The notes beneath the pieces are model-generated. The model saw nothing but the letters and a program-made list of their open reading frames with translations. It was not told the origin of the DNA and made no database searches. Below, piece after piece: positions 25,836-32,251 of a stretch of 32,372 nucleotides of DNA. The translations under genes were made by a program, and so were the position numbers. The stretch's first letter is position 1, and every line of letters starts with the position of its first letter. Location of the stretch: assembly GCA_030065755.1 (NCBI GenBank), contig JASJDA010000095.1:1-32372 (forward strand). The letters run 5' to 3'. Source of the DNA: Prochloraceae cyanobacterium. GTDB lineage: Bacteria > Cyanobacteriota > Cyanobacteriia > Cyanobacteriales > JASJDA01.

Positions 25836-25880
25836 TAAAGAGATAGTATATGAAACGCATATACTATCTCTTTATTTTTA
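25836..25880 (+). terminator. Strong intrinsic terminator of the rsmA-ispE-DUF3082 unit
   Basis: A perfect 17-bp stem (arms 25836-25852 and 25858-25874) with a 5-nt AAACG loop is followed by TTTTTAT. It lies 24 bp after the DUF3082 stop. Confidence 0.9.
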
Positions 25881-26375
25881 TCTAATGAAAAAATTCTTTG
25901 CAATTCTTATTTTTTCTGCCCCTTTTCCCCCATTCATTCCCCACTATTTCCACAAAGTTTTTTCTTGTTTTCCACAATTTACCCAGAGTTTTCCACAGAC
26001 AATGTTCAGATCTTCAAGCCTTTACCGTCAAGTCGTGGATTTTTTTCTTTCTTTCTCCTGGGCTAATTTTCACCTTTCATTTGTAAACTTACGTAAAAAA
26101 AAACAAGCTTAAACTATGATTATTTCGTAGAGACACTTTTCTAATTGGTGGTTTTGTAATGTTTCGTCGCATTGACAAACCTACCCCCTTTTAGACGACA
26201 ATAGTGCGACTGACAGATAAATAATTTTCGATTAGGCTGGCTTAACTAAGTTATGAGAGCAAATGCCAGATAGGGATTTTACTGTCTTTATTAAACCACT
26301 TTCTATTGCCCTAAAACATCTTTAATCCTGATTTATTAATCCCTAGAATCTGAAAACAGAAAAATTGAGGTAATT
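25881..26375. other. Non-coding spacer holding the DnaA-box-like cluster
   Basis: About 0.5 kb after the terminator. It contains the phased nonamers and an AT-rich tract (26040-26110). The overlapping 60-75-codon frames here are pyrimidine-rich chance frames and are not called. The 3' end carries the DUF2811 ribosome-binding site (GAGG, 5 nt before the ATG at 26376). The rest shows no feature I can name. Confidence 0.6.
25946..25997 (+). promoter_or_regulatory. Cluster of three DnaA-box-like nonamers, phased by two helical turns
   Basis: ATTTCCACA at 25946-25954, TTTTCCACA at 25968-25976 and TTTTCCACA at 25989-25997. All have the same orientation, with start-to-start spacings of 22 and 21 bp. 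TTTTCCACA is the DnaA-box form I recall for cyanobacteria. The following 100 bp are AT-rich, with A- and T-runs. This is a candidate replication origin or DnaA-controlled site; no dnaA or dnaN is in the window. Confidence 0.55.
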
Positions 26376-26909: not shown

Positions 26910-27230
26910 CTAGCCAAATCAATATCAGATGCGGCATGGTATCGTTTTCGGGAATGGTTGGAGTATTTTAGCGCTGTTTATGGAGTGCCAGTTATAGCAG
27001 TTAGCTCCAATTATACCAGTCAAAATTGTTCGAGCTGTGGGAATAAAGTAGTTAAAACTCTTAGCACTAGAACCCACAAGTGTCCGCATTGTAATTATGT
27101 TGCAGATCGGGACGAAAACGCAGCCATAAACATCTTGAGATCTGCTCTGAAAGAATTATCAACTACGGTGGGGCGCACCGAATGTGAAGTCTCCCGAGAG
27201 ATTCCCCTCTGCTTGAATGTGGAAACATAG
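26910..27230 (+). pseudogene. tnpB: Second tnpB relic, C-terminal third (plus strand)
   Basis: An open frame begins abruptly at LAKSISDAAWYRFREWLEYF, runs through NYTSQNCSSCG, the second CxxC pair in CPHC, and the RuvC-type DRDENAAINIL, and ends after CLNVET. It is the C-terminal zinc-ribbon and RuvC-III part of a different TnpB subfamily from the minus-strand copy. No N-terminal two-thirds is present. Its 5' junction with the minus-strand tnpB relic is within a few bases of 26908. Confidence 0.85.
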
Positions 27231-31966: not shown

Positions 31967-31982
31967 TTATTCGAGGATGGGG
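31937..31982 (-). terminator. 16-bp perfect hairpin overlapping the tnpB stop
   Basis: CCCCATCCTCGAATAA (31937-31952) pairs with TTATTCGAGGATGGGG (31967-31982). The 14-nt loop can itself form GAGC/GCTC. The tnpB stop codon lies inside the inner arm. It probably serves as the end of the TnpB guide-RNA scaffold and/or a terminator. Confidence 0.7.
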
Positions 31983-32251
31983 ATTGTATCTAAACTCCAC
32001 CGCAACTCCGAGTATCTCGATAGACCCTCGGCTTTGGCTTCAACGCTCGATACATCAGGGACGGCTGAAAAACGACCCGTACTCTCAAAGTCCTGCCTTA
32101 AGAGCAACGTTCTCAGTGCAATATTTCTGGCTCCCAATAAGTCAGCATGAATTGTAAAATTACAGGCTTCACAACGAAAGTCTAGACCTTTATTCGGTCG
32201 GTTTTTACGGTCTGTATGCCCGCATTTTACACACTGCTGCGAAGCTTGCAT
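31967..32251 (-). pseudogene. tnpB: tnpB relic, C-terminal fragment
   Basis: 94-codon frame with the TnpB zinc ribbon CVKCG ... CEACN, the KNRPNKGLDFRC segment, HADLLGARNIALR (RuvC-III region, where A-D-L replaces the usual D-x-x-A context) and a tail ending DTIPILE. N-terminal ~300 residues are missing. Upstream of the ATG at 32251 the frame stays open for 25 codons through GC-rich palindromes before a stop, so those palindromes have replaced tnpB sequence. Confidence 0.85.

Follow-up and report, generated by a model that had tools for sequence, protein, structure and literature searches.

Three phased DnaA-box-like sites in an intergenic spacer of a Prochloraceae cyanobacterium raise the question of whether they belong to a replication origin or to some other DnaA-controlled element, two readings that an earlier note on this DNA had offered side by side. 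The sites lie in a stretch of 32,372 nucleotides (the window), which is the entire contig C54 of a draft genome of 8.46 Mb in 455 contigs. Box 1 (ATTTCCACA, 25946-25954) and boxes 2 and 3 (both TTTTCCACA, 25968-25976 and 25989-25997) are all on the plus strand and, as had been described, occupy 25946-25997 with start spacings of 22 and 21 bp. According to the available parts of PMC4674748, TTTTCCACA is the cyanobacterial DnaA box. The spacer proved to be gene-free as claimed, with 563 bp and no open reading frame of at least 80 aa between the stop of a DUF3082 gene (PF11282; 25477-25812, plus strand; Pfam E 2.2e-28) and the start of a DUF2811 gene (PF10929; 26376-26594, plus strand; Pfam E 1.3e-28). 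Upstream, an rsmA-type gene, a GHMP-kinase (ispE-type) gene and the DUF3082 gene are followed by the proposed terminator, an intrinsic-terminator-like hairpin with a 17-pair stem and a T tail (25836-25874, plus strand). The 72 aa DUF2811 product, encoded 0.38 kb downstream of the triplet, is a clear family member (99.4 bits against a curated cut-off of 26.6). The window also holds two Cas12f1-like/TnpB zinc-ribbon fragments (26958-27227, plus strand; 31970-32251, minus strand), and an Rfam scan of it gave a tRNA as the sole match at the gathering threshold.

The phasing of the boxes, rather than their number, sets the locus apart. None of 200 first-order Markov simulations of the window produced a triplet within 60 bp or a same-strand pair within 30 bp. 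Same-strand pairs of TTTCCACA with gaps of 8-38 bp occur at five places in the whole draft: the window triplet accounts for two, another triplet, on contig C269, for two more, and a pair on C439 for the last. Single copies of TTTTCCACA are about twice as frequent in this genome as the reversed control (159 versus 80), and an excess over the reversed form (1.2 to 5.9 fold) is also present in 13 of 13 complete genomes that lack dnaA. Single boxes therefore mean little and it is the phased array that carries the signal; box counting was dropped as evidence, and in cyanobacteria the number of boxes across a genome says little about the presence of DnaA.

The array extends beyond the reported triplet. 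Weaker sites stand in register with the boxes at 25923-25931 (TTTTCCCCC; TTT.CCCCA alignment columns), 25935-25943 (CATTCCCCA; ATTCCcCA alignment columns) and 25978-25986 (TTTACCCAG), all on the plus strand, so that the row of sites starts at 25923, 25935, 25946, 25968, 25978 and 25989 and is followed by an inverted box-like site at 26035-26043 (minus strand; GTGGATTTT on the plus strand), 46 bp from box 3. The degenerate TTTACCCAG between boxes 2 and 3, where several relatives carry TTTACCCA, may also bind DnaA. In relatives, an inverted box-like TGGGGATTT (consensus tGGGGATTTt) stands about 45 bp after the forward boxes, and in six diverse loci the inverted site is an exact box, 44-46 bp away from the last forward one. 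Distances between TTCC[AC]CA sites are mostly 11, 21-22, 32-33, 42-44, 53-54 and 64-65 bp (644 pairs, many from related loci), with a best period of about 10.7 bp (R 0.92). This suggests roughly one possible site per helical turn, mostly on one face of the helix, over roughly 65 bp. Ahead of the row lies the motif TTTGCAATTCTTATTTT (25897-25913, strand not assigned), of which AATTCTTAT is conserved in the alignment; it persists in the dnaA-less genome G150, where the array is gone.

Downstream, the AT-rich tract on which the origin reading had drawn is present, yet in relatives the same stretch aligns as conserved blocks leading to a promoter. The AT-rich middle blocks (26081-26128; TGTAAA..GTAA..AAAA...ATTATTTCGT in alignment columns) are conserved only in part, given that GTAA[CA] and TTCGT co-occur in 47 of 99 loci. 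They are followed on the plus strand by a -35-like TTGACA (26172-26177), 183 bp past the start of box 3, and, after a 19 bp spacer, by a -10-like GACAAT (26197-26202). The promoter pattern scanner allows only spacers of 16-18 bp and hence did not report this promoter. The triplet forms the centre of an element that is conserved among cyanobacteria and spans about 25897-26202 in the window. A small RNA between array and gene was also considered and is disfavoured, as the sequence after the -10 element is little conserved.

To what extent is the array kept in front of DUF2811? A search of the 388 class genomes for three TTTCCACA sites with gaps of 11-15 bp matched 173 of them, and the reversed control matched 0. 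Seventeen of 30 retrieved triplet loci, the window included, have a DUF2811 gene within 1.5 kb, and the boxes always lie upstream of it in the same direction; the remaining 13 belong to different site types, some of them at dnaN and some beside a cation-efflux gene. The family itself was found in 375 of 388 class genomes and 1 of 14 control genomes. Among the best 80 of 478 DUF2811 loci, of which 78 were long enough to read and in which near relatives are over-represented, at least two co-oriented NTTTCCACA sites occur in the 800 bp upstream of the gene in 73 of 78 and at least three in 55 of 78. These sites number 223 in forward and 1 in reverse orientation, against 2 for the reversed pattern and 4 in the 800 bp downstream (both strands together). 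Five loci fall short: in L104, L107 and L109 the array takes a TTTCCCCA form, in the endosymbiont L093 it is eroded, and in L075 it is absent. Likewise, 29 of the 30 DUF2811 loci with the highest family scores have at least two exact boxes, the sole miss having just 400 bp of upstream sequence. Both copies of DUF2811 in G149, the one multi-copy genome checked copy by copy, have their own array.

Among 30 diverse genomes chosen by hand the picture is less uniform: 15 have at least two exact boxes, 7 have one and 8 have none. Three of these 15 weaker genomes lack dnaA and one has a cut locus, while in four, namely G013 and three members of family f17 (probably picocyanobacteria), a forward box is paired with an inverted one at a distance of 44-46 bp. 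Exact boxes are missing altogether from the dnaA-bearing genomes G014, G016, G035, G065 and G201; in some dnaA-bearing genomes of this kind, CCCC-type sites replace the exact boxes. Such box-poor arrays in dnaA-bearing lineages count against promoter control by DnaA.

The distance from array to promoter is nearly fixed. In 74 loci, all with at least two close exact boxes, the last exact box precedes TTGAC by 172-204 bp, and in 60 of these by 182-184 bp, whereas its distance to the DUF2811 reading frame ranges from 245 to 641 bp. Six loci at 204 bp have a CCCC-type third box in common. Wider sets of loci again give mostly 172-197 bp, with no fittingly placed TTGAC in L151, L279, L287, L298, L299 and L301. 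A NANAAT element follows TTGACA by 19 bp in 67 of 79 loci (counting the earliest match in a search range of 13-24 bp), and there is little conservation beyond it. The near-constant distance to TTGAC despite the variable distance to the gene, together with the presence of an array at both G149 copies, argues that the array belongs to the DUF2811 promoter; DnaA-box sites and promoter are conserved together, as expected of a DnaA-controlled promoter. It should be noted that a position about 180 bp upstream of the -35 element is unusual for a direct activator and thus counts against promoter control. The helical phase of the few distances other than 183 bp (p 0.005 after collapsing lineages by hand) was given no weight; that test left out distances of 181-184 and 203-205 bp, the dnaA-less L297, the six loci without a placed TTGAC, and loci without an exact box.

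Known DnaA-regulated promoters include those of dnaA, mioC and nrdAB in Escherichia coli, and DnaA-bound intergenic regions of Bacillus subtilis are cited in the available text of PMC7198777. The likeness consists in boxes upstream of a promoter, with DnaA as transcription factor. The present array differs in being long, of single orientation, about 183 bp from the -35 element and conserved over many cyanobacterial families, and in that the gene behind it tends to disappear together with dnaA. We found no account of a DUF2811-linked DnaA-box array in a literature search that covered titles and the starts of abstracts, and DUF2811 is not named in the literature searched.

Could the array nevertheless be the chromosomal origin? 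Its boxes, AT-rich DNA and intergenic place would suit one, and the same box, an intergenic position and AT-rich surroundings are features of the cyanobacterial origins at dnaN in the available parts of PMC4674748. As the earlier note had observed, dnaA and dnaN are not adjacent to the window; both are on contig C304. The note had proposed to see whether the densest box cluster of the genome lies here, and it does not: C304 carries four exact copies of TTTTCCACA in 136 bp, three of which fall within 39 bp, compared with two exact boxes and one variant in 52 bp in the window (clusters elsewhere were partly surveyed). The C304 boxes occur on both strands next to AT-rich DNA, about 2.7 kb from dnaN; they are flanked on one side by the end of dnaA and on the other by an IS605-type OrfB fragment (L011:5914-6552), which separates them from dnaN. 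We infer that the C304 cluster is the oriC of this genome, and the window array is therefore probably not. The C304 cluster resembles published origins in having TTTTCCACA boxes near dnaA/dnaN, and published cyanobacterial oriCs are mostly at dnaN, as far as the available parts of PMC4674748 report.

Other genomes point the same way. At 15 of 30 dnaN loci there are at least three boxes nearby, on both strands and with other spacings, in contrast to the one-sided DUF2811 array. A two-strand dnaN cluster coexists with a DUF2811 array elsewhere in G005 (dnaN at 3.42 Mb, DUF2811 at 2.24 Mb), G024, G149, G193 and G304 (0.52 and 4.52 Mb, respectively). In G031, seven boxes at dnaN are accompanied by a two-box DUF2811 array 0.85 Mb away, and in G025 a triplet adjoins dnaN with the DUF2811 array 0.23 Mb off. 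G022, G184, PCC 7117, G058, G112 and G065 have no box cluster at dnaN or dnaA, which would favour an origin at the array; against this, G022 and G184 have another box cluster, with spacings of 11, 54 and 9 bp, far from DUF2811. Clusters spaced 9, 53-54 and 11 bp (L322, L323 and L324) adjoin dnaN in G037, whereas in G022 and G184 they are near neither dnaA nor dnaN; they may mark displaced origins. GC skew was sampled in three other genomes (20 samples of 20 kb each) and gave no significant arc (permutation p 0.78, 0.15 and 0.31), an inconclusive outcome expected from the irregular GC skew of most cyanobacteria described in the available text of PMC7198777. Conservation of the spacer in relatives, proposed as a check, was found in that the array is kept across cyanobacteria; what is conserved is tied to the DUF2811 promoter and coexists with a separate dnaN cluster in several genomes. 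We therefore regard an origin at the window array as highly improbable. Close clustering of DnaA boxes in a cyanobacterial genome does not by itself identify an origin.

The distribution of dnaA itself provides a further line of evidence. The DnaA DNA-binding domain (PF08299) is absent from 20 and DUF2811 from 13 of 388 genomes. Among 334 complete genomes (at least 90% complete, at most 5% contamination), DUF2811 is missing from 10 of the 13 without dnaA and from 2 of the 321 with it (G027 and G151), giving a Fisher p of 4e-15 that treats related genomes as independent; within the order, the comparison is 10 of 13 against 0 of 49, again among related genomes. The ten double losses (G143; G357 and G366; G342; six genomes of family f9) represent perhaps three or four events. 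By contrast, the upstream control family DUF3082 is absent from 20 of the 334 complete genomes and from only 1 of the 13 without dnaA, and thus has no dnaA link. Loss of dnaA has been reported, in the available parts of PMC7198777, for free-living Cyanobacterium and Geminocystis and for symbionts; genomes of these groups are probably among the dnaA-less ones here, and the f9 genomes are probably the free-living Geminocystis/Cyanobacterium group.

Three dnaA-less genomes still have a DUF2811 match, and in all three the array has decayed: it is gone in G150; eroded, still recognisable and left with one exact box in G384; and eroded in G354, whose DUF2811 frame has two stops (the frames of G150 and G384 have none). 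Dependence of the sites on dnaA is thus apparent in 3 of 3 cases. G327 and G348, dnaA-bearing members of the same genera as dnaA-less genomes, keep three boxes. G295, in which dnaA is present, has only a weak and partial DUF2811 match. These three retained matches, the two complete dnaA-bearing genomes without DUF2811 and the case of G295 count against promoter control by DnaA. Triplets of any kind occur in 1 of 13 dnaA-less and 141 of 321 dnaA-bearing complete genomes. The single case, G300:C2:18151-18200 (L024), consists of exact, iteron-like repeats of 21 bp, and its contig, of 26.7 kb, is perhaps a plasmid.

Erosion of the array where dnaA has been lost would also be expected of a site resembling datA or DARS, at which DnaA is titrated, its ATP hydrolysed or DnaA reloaded, the position before DUF2811 being secondary. 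The many boxes with weaker sites in register fit such a function, and, given the C304 cluster as the inferred oriC, this is a DnaA-box cluster outside oriC, as are datA, DARS1 and DARS2 of E. coli (here with predicted binding). The available text of PMC4585315 and PMC5010248 describes those as non-coding control regions, whereas the array here is linked to a promoter. A pure titration site would need neither the nearly set distance to the promoter, nor the same association at the second DUF2811 copy, nor the loss of DUF2811 itself along with dnaA, and we consider a datA- or DARS-like site unlikely as the main explanation. Such sites may exist elsewhere in these genomes, since a second class of phased triplets lies away from promoters. 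These are TTTTCCACA triplets spaced 20-21 bp (G000:C269:26514-26563, equivalent to L010:6515-6565, and L326, L335, L341, L014 and L036), located in all six loci just past a cation-efflux gene, between converging reading frames and not at a promoter; the opposite gene is of beta-lactamase type on C269 and a GMP synthase in L326 and L341. They are candidate titration or datA-like sites.

It is also conceivable that the sites serve another regulator with a DnaA-box-like motif, and that a common but indirect cause, for instance endosymbiosis or polyploidy, led to the loss of both DUF2811 and dnaA. In line with this, single TTTTCCACA sites remain in excess where dnaA is absent, and some dnaA-less genomes may be symbionts. 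However, DUF2811 is missing in 6 of 6 f9 genomes, probably free-living, and DUF3082 is kept by 12 of 13 dnaA-less genomes. The array is eroded in each of the three dnaA-less genomes that keep a DUF2811 match, and a site spacing near 11 bp fits a DnaA array. The box sequence is moreover the published cyanobacterial one (PMC4674748, available parts). Taken with these points, another regulator appears very unlikely.

The near-fixed distance between array and promoter, and the tendency of array and gene to disappear with DnaA, suggest a DnaA-controlled switch rather than an origin. Of the two original readings, then, a DnaA-controlled element is upheld by the promoter tie and the co-loss, and an origin is disfavoured by the box cluster at dnaA. 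We consider it reasonably probable that DUF2811 is transcribed under the control of a DnaA-binding array with the triplet at its core. DnaA, probably DnaA-ATP, would assemble into a filament along one helical face of the TTTCC[AC]CA-type sites, which share one orientation, and would activate or repress the TTGACA / 19 bp / NANAAT promoter. Long spacers between -35 and -10 elements often mark regulator-dependent promoters, and the 19 bp spacer suggests such dependence here. From the co-loss, the DUF2811 product would serve a DnaA-linked task, for example restraining or timing replication, and would be useless once dnaA is gone; it seems to be useful mainly together with DnaA. Against DnaA control of this gene, we count that dnaA disruption left growth of three species unaffected under optimal conditions, as stated in the available parts of PMC7198777.

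A further step, which we put forward tentatively, is that DUF2811 may be a partner of DnaA, the gene being switched by DnaA via the array and its small product in turn influencing DnaA or initiation. The fold model of the protein (mean pLDDT 58) has helices at residues 13-25, 31-47 and 52-70 and no strand, and a search for solved relatives found none, the best matches to solved chains having E values of 1.4 and 1.5. A ribbon-helix-helix protein (a strand-helix-helix dimer) is a guess from the sequence that, given the poor fold model, we offer only as a lead.

If such a loop between DnaA and its partner is real, it would explain both why dnaA is retained where replication no longer needs DnaA and why DUF2811 is lost with dnaA. 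Picosynechococcus PCC 7117, in which the array is present (two exact boxes, TTGAC at 184 bp), is a near relative of PCC 7002. According to the available text of PMC7198777, PCC 7002 replicates without need of DnaA, and it is not clear what DnaA does in cyanobacteria able to replicate in its absence. The DUF2811 promoter is a direct candidate for that function in DnaA-independent replicators. It offers one named gene and promoter that can be tested in workable strains, and a first functional clue for the DUF2811 family.
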